The notes under the pieces are model-generated. The model ran no database searches. It had not been told where the DNA came from and was given only the letters and a program-made list of their open reading frames with translations. This document shows, one piece after another, positions 36,152-57,400 of a stretch of DNA of 64,000 nucleotides. Origin of the DNA: Tubulanus polymorphus (lineage: Eukaryota > Nemertea > Palaeonemertea > Tubulaniformes > Tubulanidae); assembly GCF_964204645.1 (NCBI RefSeq), contig NC_134027.1, forward strand, positions 6,002,485 through 6,066,484. Direction: 5' to 3'. Each line of letters begins with the position of its first letter. Position 1 is the stretch's first letter. A program made the position numbers and the translations under genes.

Positions 36152-39100
36152 ATGGCGTCCAGCATCCGGACAGTGAGAACAGAATGTCTTATTTTCACAG
36201 GATTGATATCAATTGTTTTGACGGTGCTCTGTGTTCATAGTGCCAGCTCCTTACAAACGTAAGTTGTTTTTAATTTACCGGTGACAATCAATGCTGCTGT
36301 GTGTGTGTGTGTGGTGATTACAATAATACATAGGCCCTACACAGTCCGTATCTATCAATTTCATATCGGACAAAATATTTTCACCCACACAGTTATTGAA
36401 CCCTGTATCAGTCTCCCCAGTCATGTGGGAATGACTGATGAATGGAGTCATTCAAGTTGAGTCTCAACAAATACCGGAGTATATATGTCAAGTCTACCAC
36501 CTGTAAACCGCGCAGCCAGCAAACTTTATAGTCTTAATCAATTTTAATGCAAAGGCTATGCAACCATATTCGATGATGATGATGACATCTCGAAGAAGAT
36601 CCTGTGCTGCTGTCGGCTTGTCTTATTCATTCATTGTTCATTGATGGTGGATGATGCATGAGATGAATTACTCTCAGTCTCTCTCTTCTGCAGGCCCGTG
36701 CTGAAGGCTTAGATTTGAGTGGTGCAGATTCTATTTCAAGAAACGATCTTCTCGAAATGTAGTTAATCATTTGTGAGAGAAAATTAGATTTTCGTTGTAT
36801 TCTGTTAATTGCTGTTTCAGAATTAGTGATAATTTTGCAGACAAGTTCGACAGGGATTTAGCGAAATGGCTCGGCCGATATATCCGACCACACATTGCAA
36901 GTGCGGTAAGTTGCTGTTGATTTTCCTGGTGAATTATGATAGGCCCAGCCACAGCATTGAAATCCTGAAATTCCTATATACCTTTATTCATAACATTGTT
37001 ACGAGTAAAGATGGAACTTGAAAGTTTATTGATGCCTGAAAAAATAACACATATATTGCTCAATATTGTCGACTATGGACATTATGGTTACAGTTTTTAC
37101 GGTTTCGAAAAATAGAGTCAAGAAGCAAAAAAAAGAAAAACACAAAAAATGTTAAGATTGATTACAAATGGGTTGAAAAAATCAGGATGGAAATGAAATT
37201 TATCTTCATGTCATTTTCTAGGAATATCAGAAACGCGCGAACGCGGGTGAAATTAATTTCATAGATTTAAACATTAAACGCTTGGTGCGAACAATGGAGA
37301 GTTCTTTGCAAAAAAATCTAGCCAAAAAGATGAAAGCTTTGAAGGTAACACCTTTTTCCTTATTAAAGAGCAGTATTGATTGATAATTTCTCTCTGAGTT
37401 ATCATCCATTTTGAATATCTATTCCGCTTTAAGAATTATTTCAGCTTTTGAAATTTTGACTTTTCAGAGAAATGTGAAAGAAGCTGAAAAGCTTGCAGCA
37501 AACTTTAACTGGACGGAAAAAATTGATGTAAGTAAAGATGGATCTATTTCTCCGATATAATTGTTGAATCAGTTTGGGCCTAATTTCTTTATCAATTCTG
37601 GACGGGCCTGGAGTTCAAACCCTGAACCTTTTGAGCTGATGACTGCGTAGCGAATTATTCACGTTGATCGTAATGTTTTTATTTGCAGAAGTCAAATGTC
37701 ACATATGTTCATGCCAAAAACATCTCGGGCAGTGAAACGAATTTCGTCTACAATACACAGTTCAAACAAAAAGTAGACGCTGCTTTATCTAGTGTACACA
37801 TTCCTGTGGAAATCTATGAAGGAGGTAAGCAACGCCTAGTAAATGAACTTAGCTTACACAATCCATTAATGTCCTCTGAGGACCTCATAATTTGGTAAAA
37901 TGAAATATGAAAAATCTTATTCTATCAAGTAATATGCCTGCTCTTTAAATTCTTTGTATTCATGAGGAAAATATGGAGGAATATGATCAGGAATGATACG
38001 GTTAATGATTGTAGGTTGAGCAATTTCCCTGTGGGAATAGCTGATATACGAACAAGATCAGATTTTGGAATACTAGTGATATAGAAAATTGATGAACCAA
38101 TTCGAGAATTATTCATAACGAAAAATAATATGTTTATTTGGTTGTTTGAATGTCGGTTCAATTCTTTACATTCTCTGTTTGAAGGAAGCTTTTTTCTTCA
38201 AGACGAACACTAAAGCTGGGTAATGCAGGTAGTATTGTGGGAATTCGTGTACTACAGTCATGCTCGTTGTTCCGTTCTTCTCCAAATTTTTTAGGAATTG
38301 ATCCATTCCAACAAATTCCTCCATGTCGAGGTAATCTTTGCGCAAAGTAACGACTACATGCCCTCCTGAAGAACAAAAAAAAATTGCTAATGGGTTTGTT
38401 TCAATTTGATGATTTCGTATTAAATTATTCGATCAAGAACTTTTGAAAATATTCCAAATGAAACAAGCTTTATATTTATAAACAATGAATGTATTGCCAA
38501 AGTAGGTATGCAAGAAGAAATAGATTCTCAGAAAGTTGGGCACTTTTGATTATCATCTTCAAATAATTATATTACCAGTAGTATGAACGAGTCTCGTGCA
38601 ATTGAATTATCTACTGTAGAATTGGCATTAATCAACGCTTACTTACCCGGTTTGCATATTCTTAGTAGTTCTGCGATGCATTGATATCTGACGTGTCCAG
38701 GAATGATGCTACCGCAGCAGGTTACGTTATCATACGACTCTGAAGTGAAATGTAGTTTATTCTAAATCTGATGTCGAATTGATAAGAATACCGCGCGTCT
38801 AAATCGCATCAAGGTTTTCTCATTGTTATCGAATAAACGGACTTTTTATCGTATTTACCTGTTTCAACAGAGCATTGTTGTCCGGGTATGAGATATTCAT
38901 GGTAGAATTTATTGTATAGCTTTTTCTCGATTGCTTCCTTTGCCATCCCAGTTGACGGATCAATTGCATCCATTCGACCGGTGAAACCTAACTTTCTCAG
39001 CTAAAATGATAGAGAATTTAATTTTTATTTCTATCATTTTAAGTGCCAATATTCAATATGAATCACTAATCAGTCATCACTCTCCGGGCGAAGTAAAATC

Positions 39101-42100
39101 TCTTAAGCTACTTCTGTCGATAAACTTAATTTCTAGGTGCGCAGAAATTTCTTCAAATGTGCCACAGTAACCGGTGTAGTTAATTTTTCGATAGGCCTAT
39201 ACAATATTCATTAGCCAATTAACTAAGCAAACATTTCAACTGTATAAATGTATGAATAATTGATGAAGTATCCCGTGACAACTGTGAACAGCATCCTGAC
39301 TTTATTGATTAAAGATATTCCGTTTTGGGTGAATATTTATTGTTTAATAAGAATAGGAATGCATAACGGTTTAAATAAAAGGTTTCATATTTGTGGATCT
39401 AGATATGAATACTTTTAGCCTACCTCCTCCGCGACCAGACCTGTGCCTGCTCCAACATCACATATTGTACAGTTCTTATCATTGACAAATCTATGTACCA
39501 TGTGTGCAGTATGAACTGGACCTTTGTATGAGGCACTTTTCAAATCCTGAAATTAATTGAACTTTCTAATTGTTTGCTGGCCTGTCTAGTTTTTTAGCCA
39601 TTAATTCAAAATTGAATTTCTAAATAATTTCTGTTTAAATATATCAAAGTCATAATCTAAAAAAAAATGCTTGATTACCTTGCTGTATCCGAAGTTCCAT
39701 TCATCATAGATTGACTTCATCTTTTCGGGATCTTTACAAGTGAAGACTTTTTCATGGAAATATTCCACGGTTTCTTTACCAGTTCGTGACATGATTTTTT
39801 ATGAGAAATTTGTAACAGAGAATAACTGTAATGCAGTCTCAGATGATAATTTCAAACTGAGCTGCTTGAAAGTTTTCCCATCAATTTATACTGTCCCAAT
39901 CTTTTGGACTTTGATTAGATTATCTTTGCACACTCATTGAATGTCTGGGATGTCGGCCTGGATCAATATTATACCCTGTAAAATACAAAGATCAATTTAA
40001 AGTACGGGGTATTTTAGTAAAAATGTCAATGAATATCAGAATAAGGTCCAATTGAATAATAATCGATATCTTAAAGCCCGTATTATCTCATTTTATAAGG
40101 CTCCCTTCAAAATATTTATGATGAGATAGACCTATGATCTATTGATCTTGGCGAATTTTTTATTGATTTCAAAGAATTCTTTTATATTACTGAACCGATT
40201 TAAAAACATTCTCTAGGTTGAAATGGTCCTATTCCAATTCAATCAATTTCAATTATTTTGCCAATTCTATTTTTGTCAAGATTACGACATTCTACAAGGA
40301 CTAAAATGGTCGGCGAGACTTGATGAAATATTCGCTGAAAATCGCAGACGAGACCCTGAAATAATGTGGCAAAATTTTGGTAGTCAGGCTGGATTTATGC
40401 GAACTCTGCCGGGTAAGTTCACCCAGTTATTCCGTTTGGGATTTTTGAGATTGGCTTTTATTTGTTTTGAATTGGCTTGTGTTGAAAATTTCAATCCTCA
40501 AAAATTAAAGATTGATGTCATTCACTGTTCAGGCCTCTGCTTTTTCTTTTAACAGCTAGCAAATGGCTTGGCAAGGCTGTTGATTTATATGATGTCCGAA
40601 GAAGACCTTGGTAAATGATATTTGAACCGATTCCTGATTTGTTATGTTATATTGTTTCATTTCAAGTGCATGACAGTAGATTTCCACTTCAGGTATACGC
40701 AAGGATCAAGTTCACCTAAGGACATGTTTATTCTAATTGATAAGTAAGTTAGAGATAGTGAATATATGGTTTACATGGTATATGGTTTATATGGTATATT
40801 TCATTTTAATTCCAGTAGTATCGAATTTTAAGACCCATTTAAGTCCCATTTTAAGACATCTAAAGATATTATTCATTTTAATATCTCCGGCACTTACACG
40901 TTGGTTCTCTCAATATCACTTCATTGGTCATAAATTTGTTACCTTTTTTGAAACCATTAAAAGATCTAAATCAATCAAATCATCTAAAATTCACAAAATG
41001 TTTTGAATTTCATAGTAGTGGCAGTGTACATGGTCAGGCATTGCAGTTAATGAAAGTTGCTGTAAAATCCCTTATAGATACGTTAGGTGAAAATGACTTT
41101 GTTAGTGTGGCCAAAGTAAGTTTGAAAATATTTTGATATGCCATTTAATTTATTTGAATTAAACTGTACTTACTATGAATTAAGAATAGTACCCGTGCTG
41201 GTAGGCTTTTGAGACATTTCATTCTAATTCAGTTTTCAGAAAAAGCTAGTTATATCTCATGTCTGACGACATTCGTTCAAGCAAATTATCACAATAAACA
41301 GGTATAATCACGTAAGAACTTTAAGAAAGTACTTACGGACGTGAACACAATATTTTTCTGACTGTTCTTATTTCCAGCTTTTGTATGCTGAAATTGACAA
41401 GATGAAAGCTTCTAAGATGGCCAGTTATGAAAAGGCATTCGAGTTTGCCTTCACTGAGTTTGAAAATGTCAGTATATTTTCAGTGATTTTGACTTAAAAA
41501 TTTCAATAAGTCACAGTCTAGTTGATTACATTATTTTCATTTTGCAGTTTGAAAATGAAAGGAGGAATGGTCAAGGAGCACGTTGTAACCAAGTTATTAT
41601 GATGTTGACTGATAGTGGCACTGAAATGCCCCAAGCAGTTTTCAAAAAATGGAACTGGGATGAGAAAAAGGTATACCCAGCAATTTTGATACTGAAGCTT
41701 TGATTCCACCTATTGTTACCTCATCAAGGATGTGATTCATATATGTCGACTAGATTAAGAAATTCAGTATTTGTTTCTGTACGGTTTTTGTAGGTGCGTG
41801 TCTTCTCTTATGCTGTTGGGCCAACCACAAATCCTGTATCGGCTATACGATGGATGGCTTGCTCCAATAGAGGTAATTTTCTATTTCTAGAATGCATTGG
41901 GTTCTCGTCATTCTTGACATTCTGTTCATGTGATATGGCATATAGAATAGACCATTGTGATGTTATAGTTGATCGAGTTTTTCTGCCCAGTTCTCTCATT
42001 CAGTCATTGCTTTATTTTCACAGGGTATTTTTCACAGATTCCCTCGATGAGCGCGATCAGAACTAAAGTCCAAGTAAGTCTATATTATATCATGGAAAAT

Positions 42101-45100
42101 TTCGTTTGTGATTGGGTCGACAAAATGTAAATCTCAATGTTATGCCTTTTATTTATATGCAGTATTTCTAGATGATAAGTGTATTTATTACTGTGTATTT
42201 ATTGTCAGTGTTTTCAAGCCCTATTCAGATATCACATTTCTAATCACATCAGTATAGCTGTCATGCATTGAAAAGCTATGGGAATTCCTTTTAGTTTTTT
42301 AAGAAAAAATGAGGGTAATAATTGGGTTGCCTCTTGCCGATTTTCCATCTCAAATATTCATAAATTGGAGAAATGTGATTTCTGTTGAGGGTCTAAATGT
42401 GCAAAAATGTGCCTTTCAATAAGTTATATTTTACAAGTGATTGCTAGAAATCGAACAGCTTGATCATTTTGAACTAAATGAATGTGACTTTCCTGTCCAA
42501 ATCGTTGTATGTGTACAGATTCTCCTTCACACATTGAATAACATGTTACATCAATAACAATCAAATTACAATATATAAAATTGAATAATTAATGAATACC
42601 TATAATATTGAAAATCAAAGCACACACAGTTTGTGCATTTCTAATTTTACTTCATGGGTTGTTATATAGGTTGCCGATGCCAACTCGCAATATCGTTATC
42701 GATGAAACAATTCTACATTTAGGTTGCAGTCCATGGAAAATTTTAAAACACATGCATTGGGGCAGTGACAAGGTGACTAGCCAATGTTCACTAACTCAAA
42801 TAACCTTTTAGTTCTCAGAAAACAATTAATAAAGCATGAGTATTACTCGGTCAGCAACATTCAGAATCATTGATAAAGTGATTGTTGAAAATTGGGCCTG
42901 TAATTATGTGAAAAGATAACTTTAATTTGTTAATGTGCGTGCGTGCTGCTTAATATTGTTTCAAGTACCGGTAATCAGATGTTGGTGTCCTATGAAAAAT
43001 GCATGCACATTAGATATATACTTAAAAATTCTGTGTTATGATTTCACATACTTAAATATTTCACACACTCAACATTTGTGTGCAGTTTGAACTTTCTGCT
43101 AGGACATAAATTCTGACCACATTCCCTAGCAGCGTAACGATTAAGAAGTGACAGTACAATCACGTGCACACGCCATGGATCGGACCAGTGTCTCGTACAT
43201 GCAGAAAGTGTGCTAACCACTAGACCTATAGAACTAGTCCACTTGGCCCATTAATTTTGATGTCAAATTTTGCCTGACAGCAAGGTATTTTGTTGACAGA
43301 CTTACGTTCAAAAGATGTAAGGGTGTATTGCTTTATATGATAACTCTAGGTGTTATTTACAACTGTTACTCTAGAGGCTGGTTTTCCAGACAGAGGGGGT
43401 CATGGTTATTTTCAATCAGTCATGCAGCCATTTTGTCTCTGCGCACTTGCTACCAACGCAATATTGCAACATGATTTTCTATGAATTCCTCTTGAAAACA
43501 GGCCCCACTGCAGTGAAGACCAAAACCGCACAAAATCTCCCACATCTGAGCCTGTTTCGTGGAGACACAATGCCCGTGCCCACCTCTGTGTTCGCAAACC
43601 AGCCTTACTCTATGAATTGATGTTCAACTCTCTAAACCTCGTTTTGAGATTATGAATTTTGAAGATATTTCAACTCACAAAAGTATTCAATTTCCCTAAC
43701 ACCTCACTAATCTGCTAATAGGATTGTATGTTTATAATTGTTGCATTGAAGTTATTCCTTCCCTTATTGACATTCATTCAAAGTTTTTTTTTCGAAATAT
43801 TTTTTCTGTATTCAGTTCAGTAAATGTATAATTTCCTTTATTTCCTTTATTGTCATCGACGATGTTTCTTATATTCCATAACAGCCCCGGCATGTGTCGT
43901 ATTTTTGCGTTTGTATCGTTTTTGTTGATATTCTTCATTTACAAGAATGATGATTGAGGAGGCTACTGTACCTCTAACAGTAGATTCTGATTTAAAAGGT
44001 TAGTTCAATTCTTCACTTCGATGTGTTTAATGTGAACTCTGAAGTTACTACATGCACTGTTAATGAGATCTATTGTCTCTATTCAAATCTAAATTATTTC
44101 TGATCCCTTCCTGACGCATCAAATCATTGTCATCAAAACAGGAAAACTACTATGGTAATTTAGAAAAGATTTAATGTTGCACTTTCCCTGCTTGATTTTT
44201 AAAAAGATTTTCATGCGATTTCACAGCACATCATAATGTGCTGAACACAACAGGGCTTACGACTTGTAGATATTTTTTGTATTCTTCAGCATGGCCACAG
44301 GTTTGGCTGATTATGAACATGTATTTGTTTGTTTCATTTATCTTTGCATGGATATACAGCAATATCTCACTGTACTCGGGAGACCAATGGTGCTAAAACG
44401 CGCAAAAGACATCGGATGGACGAATGTTTATGTTGATGCTTCGGTAATTAAATCTTTCGTCATTTGTCTTTTCTTAATTTTCTAATGCTTCCTAAGACTT
44501 CTTAAATCCCACGATGACTGTTCAAGATGTTTCGACGTTACACACCATGCTGTATCTAATACATTGACTTTTTGTGTACAGGGTTTGGGAATGATGACAA
44601 CAGTAACACTGCCTGTATACAATACAACCATTCTACGAAGTGTATGTATGTTTTTCTACCGTTTCGTATATGATGTTGAATTTTCTAATTGAAAACCTTT
44701 CTCTTATCATATTGCAGTGTGTAGGCAAATGTACAGTGCCAGATAAGTTAGATGAGTATGTGGTTGATAAGGCTTGTCGTGCAATCTGTGTAAGTCTTTG
44801 AATTATCATTATCTAGCTATGAAACCTTGGAAAGTTAACTTATCTAATTGGAAAACTTTCGATAATTTCAGTCGAGCAACCAAACGATTTTAGGCGTCAT
44901 GGGCATTGATATTCGAACTAAAGACATGGAAAGATATATTCCATGGCGGAAGGTAAGAGATATTCAAAATGACAATCTCCTTGATTCACTCAATACACCG
45001 CTATTCATACCATTTTCAAAAGATCATAACTTATGAACTTGCTACTTCTGTATGTTAAACTAAAGACCATTATTCACCTTCTTAAGATCAGGAAATTGTC

Positions 45101-48100
45101 CTACTGTGTTTTGATAGTGTGAAAAATAATTGTTTGTTGCAATCCCTCTCTTGAATATGATTCCTGTCTATTAAACCAATCTAAAAGCGCACCCAATAAT
45201 TCCGCTATAATTGGGTTGCGTCAGAACTGAATTTTCAAGGCCCACACGCCTCTTGTGTTTATATTGTAGCTCGGACCAAATGGTTACTCATTTGCAGTCA
45301 CCAATAATGGTTACATAGTTTTTCATCCACACCTCAAAGCAGAAAGCGCTGGGATAGAAGACCCGCCAAATGTTGACCTCCTCGATATTGAATTTGACAA
45401 TGAAGCAGAAGTTAAATCAAATGTAAGTTGATTGTGTTGGTTGATGTTGTGGAAGATATTTAACCTTGATGAATATTAGAAATGTAGAAATACACCCTTT
45501 TGAGTCATTATTTTGTGAATTAATGATTATGTTAATTATATCTTTTATCAATTGTGTCTTACAGATCAGAAAAAAGATGATTGATCAGAAAGGTGGTACA
45601 ACTGATTTTCTTGGATACAGGCTGACACTGGATGAGATTTATGCAATAAAAATGAACCTTACATATTCGTACACTAAAATAACTAACACATCATTCAGGT
45701 ATGAGTAACTGAGGTTTCACCGTAAAAATGGCTTGAAGCGGTTTTAGAACATTATATATGATTTGTCTACCATTTCAGTCTAGCCCTTGTTGTACCGAAA
45801 TCTCGAAAGAAATTCATGAACGTTAGGAAAAATTCTATGAGAGATACAAGTTCTAAAAGAGCCAGTTAGTTTGAATCAATTTTTCAACTCAAATTTATCA
45901 GTTTCATCCATCAGATCTATCCTAATGTCTACATTGTCCATGCAATAGAACCAATAGCAATGTATGATTTACTTTTCAGTATTTTCTGAATTGGACACTG
46001 ATAAATCATTTCTGATGATTGCACCATGGTAAGTAGTCGAATTCAAATGTTGAGCTAACTTTTTCTCAACTTTGTAAATGCAGAATTCTATAGACATAAT
46101 TCTCTAATTAGGGACTATTGCCCAGGAATGGCTGCCTTGCTGATGAATAAGGCTAATGAGTCGGCATCTATCTTGAAGGACATTTTGCAAAATAAATACA
46201 GGACCAGATGTAAGTTTTAAAATTATTGATGCTTTTTAAAGATAAGTAACAAGTCTGAGGTCTACGCATTATGATTCATATCTCTGTGGTTAATATTGTT
46301 ATGGTTTGGTTAATGTTTAGGCAAAGGACAAGAGTCGGAGATGTTGAATAACCTACTTCTCGATATCAGAATAACAAGATTACTTCAAACATCTTGGAAA
46401 GATGATCAATCAAAACAAAAGGGGTAATACACTTATATTGTATGTAAATTATGCAACATTCAAATGTAATTGATTTGCTTCTTACAAAAAAACTCGTATT
46501 TTGCTCTGATTTTATACATTTTGATTGATTTTGACGTTTTAGTGCTGGAATTATCTCTCGATTCATTGCCACAAATGGTGGATTAACTAGGGTATTTCCT
46601 CAAAGGTAACTCCTCTTAACCTCCTCACATTAGATGACACATCAGCGAAGATTTGTTTTTCGTCAGGACAACTGAACAGCATCGCTTATTTCCTGTATCT
46701 TCTAATTCTAGTGAAGGGATAGATTTTGAACAGTACGCTGACCCTTGGAAGGCTTCATATTTCCAGCGAGCATTTTCATATGCAGATGAGAACCCAGATG
46801 GCTTCTTGTTTGCCATTCAACCATTACCAGAATCATTTAATAAAAGTAAGTTACATAGTTAAGTGCACTCTTTAGATTTTTCAAAAAGCAACTGCTTCAC
46901 GTTGTTGTAAGGAATCAACCAGTTTATTCCTATGATAATGAACTGAATCTCCTCAGGCCTCCATAGATTTTTGTAAAAATACAATCTGTATGGAAAGTGA
47001 AATGAAAAGTAAATGTAATTCACTCGTAGCTGCTGAACCAAACTATACCAATCCTAATGTGATGGTGGCAAAAGCGGTGAAATTGAGCAATTATTCATCG
47101 GCGAAAGTTGCAGTCATTGGGGCGTTTGTGACAGTGAAAAAACTGAGTAATAAGATGGTGCGAAGTGTCACTGAATGCAAAGACGAGACATCAGCTGTGT
47201 GTTACCTTCTGGATCGATCAGGATTTCTTCTAGCTAGCAACCAACCAGACCTCGAGGTACTATTCCAGTTGTGGCTCAGATTAAGATAAACATACAGTTT
47301 TTGCCATTGATAGGAAATCATGAAAGTGATACGCGGGTAGATGAATGTGTACCAGTATTTAGATTGGAAATAGCAATAGTACATGTATTAGTGTCTCTTA
47401 AAGAATTTCATTCTCTATATTTTGTATAGATCGGCCGATTTATTGGTCATAAGAACCTAGATCCTCAACTTGCGTATTGGATGTATAACTATTCGCAGCT
47501 GAGTAGGATTGAATTTTTTGATTACCAAGCAACGTGTCCGAAACCTGTTGAAAAAACAAGTGCGGGACCGAGGTCATTTTATATTGTAAGTATCGAAGGT
47601 CAGAAGCCAGAATTTCTAAACAGCTTTATGCATCTGTGCAATTTTTTCTTTGAAATTTCAGCCGACAATATCAGATTTATTAGACTCGATGAAGTGGTGG
47701 TCAGTGAAGTCTGCATGGACATATATTGTTTATAACATCTTCAGGTTAGTTTATTCATTCAGATGTGTATTTCATAATCAAGCTCATGTATGTTAACTAT
47801 TACTTTTCTGCTATACAATATTCTGATATAGGCTCTTCACTATTTTCAGCTCTTTCACTGATTTATTTACTAACGTATATGGTAAGTATTGAACAATAGA
47901 TACTGCTTTGATGTCAAGTTCACTGCAGCAGAATTGTCGATTCTCAGTTGACTAGTATTCTGTACCATTATTATTGAAGTTAATATCAACTTTCAGCTGC
48001 AAAAGCACCACCTCCGCCAGAAGAAATTCCGAAAAACATTAGTTGTATTAAAAGGTCCGCTTACTACTTCCCAACTAGAATGGCAAAAGTTGTGTCTGGC

Positions 48101-48826
48101 ACATTACAATGCAATAACTGTACTAGGTATGATCATTATTAAGATTTTTACTTGAAATATACTTGTATTAGTTAATCTACATATGTAGTCCCTTACTTGA
48201 GTACTGAGTAACAAGCAGTAGTTCACTGAAAACACAAGTCAATAAAACTATATTTTTCTCGCCTTCCAGAAATTATTACATGAAAACATTGGAAAAGAGT
48301 AATTTGATGATAGTTGTGGCTGATCCATTGTGCAATTTTGATGACGAAGAGTCCTGTCAGACACCTTATCTACCACAAGAATCGGCACCAGATATCCTTT
48401 TCATTTAACACCTTCAGAGATATGAGTACAAATCATTATCATTCCATTTAATTGCTATAATGTCTAAATTTCAAGTGATTAGTCACTTTGTATGGACTTA
48501 ACCTTATGTAATGAAAATTTCATATTAATAAGATCCTTGACTGAAATTTACTTGATGGACCAGATTTATGTACGCGTGTTCCCAGGTATAGACGTAGGAT
48601 TGGCAAATGCCATGACAGACATCCTAGGGTATGTCAAAAAAAACTTCTTGCATTTCCAGCTTGAACTGATTTGTAACCTGTCAATACATCTGACGATATT
48701 TCTAATTGTTGTATTGTATCATTACAGGAGTATACATTAGACTGCGGTGTCAACGGTTCAGTGAAACCACTCATGATTCTAATCATCAGCATGCTGTTGA
48801 TGTCATCAATTACTCTAAAAACCTGA
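36152..48826 (+). CDS. Voltage-gated calcium channel alpha-2/delta subunit
   Basis: There are 34 exons and 1136 residues. They begin at 36152, 36821, 37222, 37468, 37689, 40281, 40556, 40693, 41016, 41233, 41378, 41548, 41794, 42024, 44360, 44582, 44718, 44872, 45270, 45565, 45779, 45980, 46112, 46321, 46543, 46668, 46967, 47430, 47662, 47850, 47997, 48270, 48552 and 48728. A signal peptide is followed by the VWA_N region ([31 protein letters not shown]) and a VWA domain with MIDAS residues DNSGS at 249-253. Next come [10 protein letters not shown] and a Cache-like region ([11 protein letters not shown]). The Cys-rich delta part ends with [12 protein letters not shown] and a hydrophobic tail ([11 protein letters not shown]) suited to GPI anchoring. 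The protein is extracellular and promotes channel trafficking. Intron 32 is AT-AC. Intron 5 contains a METTL27-like gene. Confidence 0.93.
38166..39792 (-). CDS. METTL27-like SAM-dependent methyltransferase nested in an alpha-2/delta intron
   Basis: Five exons, read downward (39792-39679, 39546-39424, 39000-38859, 38739-38647, 38365-38166), give 223 residues. The N-terminal [10 protein letters not shown] resembles the YDxWAxxYD signature of METTL27 (WBSCR27) proteins. SAM motif I is [14 protein letters not shown] at about 67-80, followed by [19 protein letters not shown]. Later motifs are [30 protein letters not shown] and a C-terminal strand. The substrate of this family is unknown. The whole gene lies antisense within intron 5 (37825-40280) of the calcium channel subunit gene. 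Invertebrates usually have several such genes. Confidence 0.85.
42074..44359 (+). other. Long intron 14 of the alpha-2/delta gene
   Basis: This 2.3-kb intron holds the tRNA-derived repeat near 43.1-43.25 kb. The open frame at 42608-42811 is not homologous to the alpha-2/delta family, and its inclusion would break the expected junction, so I leave it out. Confidence 0.55.
43130..43245 (-). repeat. tRNA-derived SINE
   Basis: In reverse orientation the sequence reads GGTCTAGTGGTTAGCAC (A box, about 43227-43211) and about 25 bases later GGTCCGATCC (B box, 43186-43177). The spacing and the A box closely resemble the 5' half of Glu/Asp/His-type tRNAs. The body does not close into a functional cloverleaf, so it is a SINE head rather than a tRNA gene. 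Confidence 0.6.
48392..48551 (+). other. AT-AC (U12-type) intron of the alpha-2/delta gene
   Basis: The 160-base intron begins ATATCCTTTT, the consensus U12-type 5' splice site. Near its 3' end ATCCTTGAC resembles the U12 branch site TTCCTTRAY, and about 11 bases after the branch A it ends TTTAC. Reading through instead gives a stop at 48408 and loses the Cys-rich end and anchor. Using it restores the family sequence [17 protein letters not shown]. Confidence 0.85.
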
Positions 48827-50927: not shown

Positions 50928-53460
50928 TCAAAAGAATTGTGGAACATCTTTCCAGATTTGTTTGACGATATCTTTATCCATAGAAATTTCAATTATGTCC
51001 TCATTAAACACCTGTAAGAATCCTTTGCGTAGTTCAGTTATTTGATGTTGGTGCTCGGCGTATGATGGCGTTTTCATTATTAGATGCATCAATGATAGGA
51101 ATTCTGTACGAATCTAACGATATAGAGAACAATAATGTATGATTAACATTAATGATCAAATTGCAATTCAACAAACAGTTGAGGATAGATGGCAAAATGA
51201 GAGCATCAAAAAGTAGGTACCTACCAGTTTTCCTGGTGACTGGTTTGATATTTCTCTAGCGATGATGTCTATCAGTACTTTGGCATCATTAGTGTAAATC
51301 AGCTCGGATGTTGCTTGTCCAGAGAAAATGTCGGACAGAAATTTCAGCACGGAATTCGGATTATTCTCTTGGTGTGGATACATTTTTACTGGATCATCTG
51401 AATAAATTTTCATTTTTCAAATAATGGCAAAATTATATCCTCAGAAGATGGAACTTTAGAATACCATTAATTATTTCAATTATCAACTTTCCTCATTTAC
51501 CTCCTCTGTTTGCCAATGAGATGACTTTTCCTGTTAGTTCATTTGGAGCTCCATGTTCCGCAAGTACTTGCATGACAATATTATCACTAGGTTGGTAAAA
51601 ATGTAGATTATACGAGAGTATCATAGGTAGAACAGCATCTACGATGTCTTCATCCACTCCGGACCAGGGTGGATTCTCCATATATGACAAGAGAAATACG
51701 ATGAAAGCGGAATTCAGAAAATCTGAAAAAGTTATAATGAAATTATGGCAGCCGGTGGCAGCTTTCTCCATAGAACCCTGATCACTCGACAATGATTTGA
51801 AATAAAAGATGATGTAAGGACTACCAAAGTCCAATGACAAATGGATGAAGAGAAATCCATTTGCACCACTATATGGAAGTAAAAAGTTGAATATATTACT
51901 CACCATAGTGTTGAATAGGTAACTCTTGTCCTGTTGAAAATATCACAGTTAAGACAACACATGAATAACAGAATTTCTGCAAATCTGTAATATATAGAAT
52001 TACGCCATACAATGTTATACTTGTAGGTTATTCGAGAAAAAAATTAACTAAAGGAACAATAATTGAGGCTATAATAAGCTTACCGGATGTATCAGTCTGT
52101 ATATCTCTGGCTAACTCTAATGGAAGTATTGAATTCAATAAAATATCAATGACTAGAACATCAAGACCACATAAAGCAGCGAACACATTCAATAACACAT
52201 TACGTATAGTTGAACGAGTCTCCTGGAAAGTGCAAATACAAATTAGCTACGAATGAATTGAACACAGCACAGAAATTTCTCGGCCTATGAAACTTACCAT
52301 CTGGTAATAAAGCACCAATGTGTCCACGCACTCATAATTTTCTCTACGGATTAAATGCCTACTGACTGATGCATTGGCCTTGCTCTGTAATAAATCAGCA
52401 TACAAGATTCTCCGCATTACTATGCCAGGTTTATTAAGATGGTTGATGCATTATTTAGTTCACCATCCATCAATTGCGTAACAAACAATCTTTTTATCTT
52501 CTAATTTCTAGGATGATGAAATGTAAAATCTAAGTGGTGACATTGCATCATATTTGATATTATGACAGTTTCAGAGGATGGGTTATTCAAAAGATGATGA
52601 AAAGTAAAATATATGTTGTGACATTCCAGGATATTGTGGAAAGGAGTTCCGGAGGATGGTTTATTCTAATTATGAAATAATCTACGACTTAGAGTTCTTT
52701 ATCCAAATAGCTTATTACCGGGGGTATATAGGCCTATGAAACCAGAGGAAGGAACTGCAATGCAACAATAACCGGTAAGATGATATTGGGTCACTAAAAC
52801 AAATCTTCTATTGAATATATACAATGACTATCTTACTAGAATAGAAAATAGTTCCTCTAGATACTCTAGAATTATTTCTTCATCTTCGTACAATGCCCAA
52901 CTTCTTTGCTGCGAATCGTCTTTACACGCTGCCATTTCAGAAAATATCACCGAAAGTCGTTTAGCATCATGACTATTTTCAACACTAGTGTCATCCTAGA
53001 ATACAAGATACATCATCAAAATAGCAATTTGCTGTTGTTTTCAATTGATGAAATGGCCATTTATTTCAACTTCTTTCATCCTGATCAAGATAAAACTGCA
53101 ATGGAAAATGTCAGAAATCAATTCAATATCGTTAGGCCTACCTACCATTTTGCTTTGCGCAGACTCCAAAATCTCATCAATAACAGGTCCGATTGTTGGA
53201 ATTTCATTTCTAATTTCGGTCAATAATATACTAATTGTGTGTTGACACTTGCTATATCCAACATTAGTCTCTTTTCGTAACAATTCCACCAAGTTCAATC
53301 CTAGAGTTTTCGGCACTGAGGAAGCCATCAATCGACCAGCATGTAATAGAGAATTCTTGCGTTTTACTGGTGAAAGTTCAATGTTGTTCAGTGAACACGA
53401 TATACAGTTGGAAGAATTTTCGGTTCCTGTACTTGTCGATGAACCACCACTCATCGCCAT
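50928..53460 (-). CDS. NCKIPSD: NCKIPSD/SPIN90-like protein without SH3 domain
   Basis: Eight exons, read downward (53460-53146, 52995-52837, 52384-52298, 52222-52084, 51984-51904, 51722-51501, 51397-51225, 51113-50928), give 453 residues. The C-terminal two thirds align well with the SPIN90 leucine-rich/armadillo-like domain: [67 protein letters not shown] and [18 protein letters not shown]. In vertebrates this protein binds Nck, WASP and Arp2/3 and makes Arp2/3 nucleate linear filaments. The model starts directly with a Ser-rich segment ([18 protein letters not shown]), and no SH3 exon is seen upstream. Either the SH3 domain is absent here or a distant first exon is missed. Confidence 0.88.
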
Positions 53461-54492: not shown

Positions 54493-57400
54493 TGCGATTA
54501 TAGGCCCTTTTTAAGCCCGCCAGGCCCAGGGTCAAGAATCGACCCCAACTCGTTATTATGTTATTTGTATTTTTTACATGCAGACTTGTCCCACCCATCC
54601 TGCATTTTGATAAACTTTTCACATTCGCTGGTTAAAAGATATATTTCCTATATAATTTTTGAATTGAGGCTATGATTTCTGTTTCATATCAAAAAGCAAA
54701 AAACATTAATTATCCTTTCACGCCATCAGGACAGATAGACTACACGCAATAGAAGATATTTTTGGCTTCTGTGTCGTGATAAAGCCCTTTTTCTGATATG
54801 ATATGAAATGTTGTGAAACTTAAATAGGATATTATAAGTTGAGCATAGTAAAACTTAAAAATGCCGGGGTACAAGATGACTGTAAACCATGCCCCTTTTT
54901 GCTGCCCATTTGAAAAATATCCACTTCCAAACTATTTAGTTTGATTACAAGTAGTCTCTGCTCAATGCAGATCTTTTTGGACTGTGAAAATCTGTCGGAC
55001 ATAAAAGATATCCTAGTTTGAAACCAGTAATCAAATTGAAAATTTCTACGATAGTATTCCTCCGTTGCTCGCTTTTAAACCTTCTCATCTTATGTGAAGG
55101 GCGATGATCGCATTGTGGATATTGCGCTTCATCGAGAAAATGAAATAATATTTTTAAGTCAACAGGTCAGAAACGTGATACGAGTCAAACAATTATGCGG
55201 CGAGTTAAACAATTATTTATTCATGTAATCGAAAAATTCAGCTAATCTCGTTAAAGCCGATGTGGCGCGTGATAAGCCCCGTTGTTACTCACCGTAAAAT
55301 CCATCTTGATTATAACCTGAACACGGTCGATTGTACGAAGCCTCGGGCTATATACTATATTAATAATAACACGGTGAAATCCTCGCCAGTCATAATATCA
55401 TTGTTCAAGTCTGGACCGTTTTTGAGCTTGGCATGATTAGTTTCCATGGTAACAGATTATCGGAGATGAATTTGTCGAACGAATGTCGATGATGGTCATG
55501 ATTATCGCATTCCGAGGGGAAACTTTTGGTTAAGTTTTGTGTCGATATTGGTCACGGTTTTCTGTCTTGTTTTATGTATGATTCAATGGCCAGGGGAGCG
55601 TTGCTTTCACTGTAAAGCCAGGCGCAGACTGGTGACTGTCGATCGCCATTTGCTGCTATCGGTAATCGGGATGCAATTTTATAGACCAGAAGAAATTTGT
55701 GATTACGTACTAGCAAGCGATTTTTCTGTTGAGCTTGAAGGATATCGAAGTAAAATATATATCGACTTAAGGATATAAATTTTCCAAATTGAGAGAATTT
55801 TATGTCTGAAGACAAAAAATTTGAAAAAGAGATTTATCCTTAGCACTACTTAATGTTTTTACGAGAGACTGTCTATGCTATGTGAAATTACGTAGGAAAT
55901 GACATACAATGAAATTTTTACAATAGGCCAAAAAGAGGCCAACAAGGGTTAGCCTACACATAGGCCTAAGATATGACAAAAATTGCCATAAGAATTTAGA
56001 ATGGAGTATAACATACGTTTTTACACTTGATATGTTGTGAAATATCCCATGTAGCAGTTGTAGAGAATGTTTATTTTGCCCTAAAGTGAGTGCTACAGAC
56101 AAATCCGTTCCCTATGAGATTTAGTTGCTATTGGTTACTTCACTTGTTTTAACTGTCAGAATTGAAATTCAAATTGGGCTATAAAATGTTCGAGGCTTGT
56201 ATCCAGCAGGTCTTCTCTAGATGCGATGTCTCATTACTGAATTGAATATAAGCTGTTGACACTGTCTGATGTATTGATGTTCAACTTTCTGGATGTCATT
56301 TCCAATGTCATGTTGTTAGGCCTTGGCCTTTCTTTACAGAAATCATTAAAATCTTCAGCAGAATTATCTGGAATTTTGCAAGATGTTGATTTCCCACTAT
56401 TTTCTTCCTTGGCAGATAGATCCAGTTTTCTGATTAAGACGACTTGTTCAAATTTTGACTCTATTGATGCGAAAAGTAAAAAAATGTGTCTATAGATTTT
56501 TATCTAACCTTCCAATTTCCAGGCATCTCAGTCTCCCATACAGATGAAACTCCACATCTTTGACACACATATTCTGAAATCCAGTCAAAACAATACTTGA
56601 GCATTCACGTGAAAGTTTTGAAAAAATGGATGCTTTTTTAATGTTACGTTGTTAGCCTAGTTGAATGTCAGTTACACGTACTTTGTCGGATAAACTACGA
56701 AGATAAAAATGGAAAATTGGAAGAACTGTTTGTTTTGTTGTTTGGTCTACGTGTCATTAGTCAGATTGTTTGTTGCTGTCAACGATACAGTCTGAATGAT
56801 TGATTGAACTTTTCGTTGCAAGGCTCAAGATACTGACTATTCACCTGACTGTAATTACTGCTAATTGTTCGGTGTTTGCGTCTGTGTTTCAGCTGTCAAT
56901 GAGATACTTGTCATATTAGTTGAGAAATGACAACTGGACTTTTCTGTTGATATAAAAGTTCAGTTACCGATCTAAAGGGTCACTTTGGAATGATCTAGCG
57001 ACGCATAAAGTTATTGTGGAATAAAACAGGTTAGTGGCGTGGATATAGATTTCTGCTGAATTTTCAATCTTATGAGACTAAGTTAACAATTTTAAGTTTG
57101 TGATGAAATCAATCTTGGATTCTATCCGGATTTTTATGAATTCGGCTATATTCTAATTAGTTTTCTTATGGCTGATATATGTTTTAGGATTTTCATGCAA
57201 AATGGATGATAGGCCTATACTTTTCAATAATTTTGACTGGTTGTGGGTTTAGTCTAATCATTTCATACATACGGGTGCTTGAGATTATGAAGCTGACTTG
57301 TCTATGCTGATTGTGTTATTTGGTTTGTGATTCACTGTGTATGCATTTAGATAAAAAGAACATCAGGAAAAAATCCAGTTTGTGTTTTTCCAGTACTAGA

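Follow-up and report, generated by a model that had tools for sequence, protein, structure and literature searches.

We conclude with high confidence that the 160 nt at 48392..48551, in the alpha-2/delta gene of Tubulanus polymorphus, constitute a genuine U12-type AT-AC intron of phase 1, constitutively removed, ancestral, and probably of the same kind as the minor introns of human CACNA2D1–CACNA2D4. Positions are those of the window, i.e. the whole stretch of 64,000 nucleotides analysed, which occupies C3:6002485-6066484 in the genome, and the gene with all its features lies on the plus strand. The sequence itself, the reading frame, the homology on both sides of the junction, the snRNA genes and the donor present at the same position in a paralogue make up the part of this explanation that was read directly; the actual splicing of the RNA, the GPI attachment and the homology with the human introns are what we infer.

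The alpha-2/delta gene and its C-terminus

The gene model, obtained by spliced alignment, extends over 36576..48826; it is uncertain for the first exons and for a few small ones near 47.7–48.0 kb. The spliced protein carries the Pfam domains VWA_N (E 5.6e-27), VWA (E 1.1e-12) and VGCC_alpha2 (E 2.5e-68), and the MIDAS motif DxSxS of the VWA domain was recognised by eye as ILIDNSGS. At the 3' end, the alignment places the exon 48270..48391 before the minor intron and the exon 48552..48628 after it; an ordinary GT-AG intron of phase 0 (48629..48727) then precedes the last coding exon (48728..48826, stop included).

An earlier note on this DNA, drawn from the letters alone, had proposed that the unspliced frame stops at 48408 with neither Cys-rich end nor membrane anchor, and that splicing restores the Cys residues and a GPI-type tail, the phases being kept through to a stop at 48826. 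This is what the sequence holds: the unspliced frame meets a TAA at 48406..48408, and the spliced frame is open until the TGA at 48824–48826, with the cysteines and a hydrophobic tail—putatively of GPI type—after which only KT remains. The spliced C-terminus aligns with the end of rabbit alpha-2/delta-1, conserved Cys included, and the last two Cys are 11 residues apart in all four proteins compared (the window gene, both paralogues and rabbit).

Elsewhere in the window, exons on the minus strand at 51000–51950, convergent with the alpha-2/delta gene, resemble the leucine-rich domain of SPIN90/NCKIPSD, below the Pfam cut-off. A candidate tandem alpha-2/delta copy at 55305 did not hold up.

Splice signals and position of the junction

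The fit to the U12 AT-AC consensus, also proposed earlier, is borne out by the three signals. The donor ATATCCTTTT (48392..48401) satisfies the U12 5' splice site consensus ATATCCTT and matches the published donor consensus ATATCCTTT, a 9-mer occurring only once, at 48392, on the plus strand of the window; the branch site ATCCTTGAC (48533..48541) matches the published TTCCTTRAY at 8 of 9 positions (both consensus sequences from PMC6259924); and the intron ends in TTTAC, whose last base is 48551, with the coding frame kept. The branch A, at 48540, stands 11 nt before the intron end, within the 9–16 nt expected between the A of TTCCTTRAY and the 3' end. The boundaries read ...GCACCAG/ATATCCTTTT at 48392 and ...AAATTTAC/TTGATGG at 48551.

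By itself, the motif is weak evidence for a U12 intron, since 14 of 100 shuffled windows contained by chance, somewhere on one strand or the other, a relaxed combination of donor, branch and AC; the argument is thus carried by place and context. The same frequency could speak for a chance motif, the gene truly ending at 48408 and the similarity downstream being a decayed remnant. We find this barely conceivable: the exons 3' of the intron are open, in phase and conserved with rabbit and two paralogues, and they supply the cysteines and the tail. Chance is excluded by where the motif lies, in phase at the break of homology, and by its reappearance in a paralogue.

The junction was recovered independently of the motif, by spliced protein-to-DNA alignments which consider the terminal dinucleotides only and give no bonus to U12 signals. 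Introns cost 10 half-bits when GT-AG, 20 when GC-AG and 30 when AT-AC, so that an AT-AC intron is charged three times the cost of a GT-AG one. Two guides were used: a single-exon paralogue from contig C11 of the same genome, with an open frame of 1114 aa and 49% identity over 1089 residues, and rabbit alpha-2/delta-1. With the C11 guide the gene was recovered from about 36.6 to 48.8 kb, and 48392–48551 came out as the sole non-GT-AG intron, AT-AC and of phase 1, a call which survives raising the AT-AC cost to 60. The rabbit guide gave the identical junction, so that the coordinates and the phase proposed from the letters were found exactly by both guides. An alignment allowing any donor dinucleotide gave tiny spurious introns and was dropped.

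That the same exons are joined elsewhere by ordinary GT-AG or GC-AG splicing is very improbable. Such models can be forced—a GC intron 48385–48482 plus a GT-AG intron 48508–48563 with the C11 guide, a single GT-AG intron 48356–48563 with the rabbit guide—but forbidding AT-AC lowers the score by 31 half-bits in the first case and by 21 in the second (102 with AT-AC, 81 without it), despite the higher cost charged to the AT-AC model. Besides, they delete the conserved DGPD or insert unrelated residues: the second intron of the forced C11 model is 56 nt long and, together with the GC intron, spoils conserved residues. Both also leave unexplained a complete set of U12 signals and its recurrence in a paralogue.

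In the AT-AC model, the minor spliceosome would most likely remove 48392–48551 constitutively, joining CCA G/TT GAT (P-V-D). The two C-terminal exons would then be read, with the cysteines of the delta part and the predicted GPI-type tail.

Paralogues and age of the intron

The C11 paralogue (C11:2293000-2300500, minus strand, 49% identical to the window gene) directly displays the spliced order, with SPVTDDGPDICAQTPRYRRR facing the junction in the alignment with the window gene. This intron-free copy is likely an old retrocopy that stayed open, and it provides a natural record of the spliced form.

A third alpha-2/delta paralogue, with long introns, lies at about 19.31–19.37 Mb on C3, the same contig as the window gene, and is more diverged than the C11 copy. 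In the 80 kb examined (C3:19313001-19393000), ATATCCTTT occurs once on the plus strand, and this single donor adjoins the end of the homologous exon in phase 1 (...TNLLLVVVDAVCTECAIVQFSLEPEEMK a/ATATCC). About 1.6 kb past it we found a branch site CTCCTTAAT (8 of 9 positions) and, 11 nt later, an AC as phase-1 acceptor. Beyond it come a short exon carrying C...CH, which closes in phase 0 at GTAAGT, and a final exon bearing a Cys and a hydrophobic tail. These last exons were read by hand, because the full spliced alignment of this paralogue was too noisy: it placed AT-AC introns devoid of U12 motifs at three places and ended before the C-terminus. The acceptor was chosen among 19 candidates using U12 branch features and is therefore partly selected, which the donor is not, so that the paralogue evidence rests more on its donor than on its acceptor. 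With a donor at the same position and in the same phase in the C3 paralogue, the sequences indicate that the intron is genuine and was present before these alpha-2/delta paralogues of Tubulanus polymorphus separated.

More distant VWA_N/VWA/Cache relatives, perhaps CACHD1-like, are found at C4:801000-810999 and C1:12396800-12406799; no ATATCC[TA]TT donor occurs in 30 kb of each. The 30 kb on C1 contain one GTATCCTTT.

Minor splicing in this genome and in other channel genes

A search of the 268-Mb genome against the Rfam cut-offs returned matches above them for U12 (111.8 bits), U11 (98.1), U4atac (73.0) and U6atac, the latter with two strong copies (96.5 and 93.5 bits) and a weaker third of 40.5 bits. 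This third match, on contig C8 (L005 1501-1611), is probably a pseudogene. The snRNAs are complementary to the signals of the window intron: GAAAAGGA of U6atac pairs with UCCUUUUC of the donor over 8 bp, AAAAGG of U11 with the CCUUUU of the donor over 6 bp, and AAGGA of U12 with the UCCUU of the branch site.

A first genome-wide pattern search, restricted to short introns, gave no match. The pattern ATATCCTTTT...TCCTTRAC...AC, searched over one length range, has a single match, and its reversed control none. The match is an AT-AC intron on contig C8 (L010 1501-1607); the coding stretches on its two sides belong to a coiled-coil protein, and their frame is kept (ESNYL/REQARK). Like the intron of the window it has the ATATCCTTTT donor, the AC end and a conserved frame, with a branch site of its own, TTCCTTGAC; it differs by its phase, 2, and by interrupting an unrelated gene. 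Since the match keeps the frame between coding stretches, AT-AC introns of this form are, as predicted from the genome, present in another gene. The coiled-coil gene itself has a weak CCDC106-like match.

Minor introns are reported, in a review and a primary paper, in all four human CACNA2D genes (PMC8767276; PMC6865273). The comparison with these members of the same gene family is by the presence of a minor intron in each of them alone, as both sources give neither position nor subtype, and our literature search did not find the position of the human introns; we regard them as probably of the same kind as the window intron. A U12 AT-AC intron is also widely conserved in the Cav and Nav alpha-1 genes, at segment 1 of domain I (PMC6259924). 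It resembles that of the window in being deeply conserved, in its ATATCCTTT donor and in its location in a channel gene; on the other hand it concerns an unrelated subunit and position, and its conservation follows the common descent of the alpha-1 genes only. The window intron thus belongs to an already known kind and is not peculiar to its gene, being shared by a paralogue and with minor introns reported in the four human genes.

When the intron is retained, the reading ends in ...SAPDILFI-stop, deprived of the last cysteines and of the tail. This loss opens the way to a reading in which the intron, although real, is a regulatory switch: slow minor splicing would yield a form truncated at 48408 and secreted instead of GPI-anchored. 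Minor introns are often slow to splice. Blocking their splicing lowers the expression of Na+ and Ca2+ channels in cardiomyocytes (PMC8767276), which also favours a regulatory role. However, the stop met on retention precedes the next exon junction (48628) by 220 nt, and neither AATAAA nor ATTAAA occurs within the intron, so that nonsense-mediated decay or nuclear retention of the retained form is expected, and more likely than a secreted isoform; besides, a literature search gave no paper linking alpha-2/delta, GPI-anchor, secreted form and intron retention. We therefore hold the switch to be unlikely, and the earlier proposal that the efficiency of removal decides between an anchored and a secreted subunit to be a guess. 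Equally little probability goes to the extension of this idea, i.e. that the intron has persisted in the alpha-2/delta genes of animals because slow splicing sets the anchored amount or makes a secreted form; if true, it would tie excitability to the activity of the minor spliceosome.

An automatic annotation based on GT-AG only would be predicted to truncate or distort the C-terminus of the subunit, with loss of the cysteines and of the anchor. The intron 48392–48551 is in this respect a good annotation correction and not a surprise, since introns of its kind are known in the human members of this gene family. It also stands as a clear-cut example of a minor intron of long standing in a family of calcium-channel genes other than the sodium and calcium alpha-1 genes, given an intron at the same position in two diverged paralogues and a single-exon paralogue in which the spliced form is recorded.
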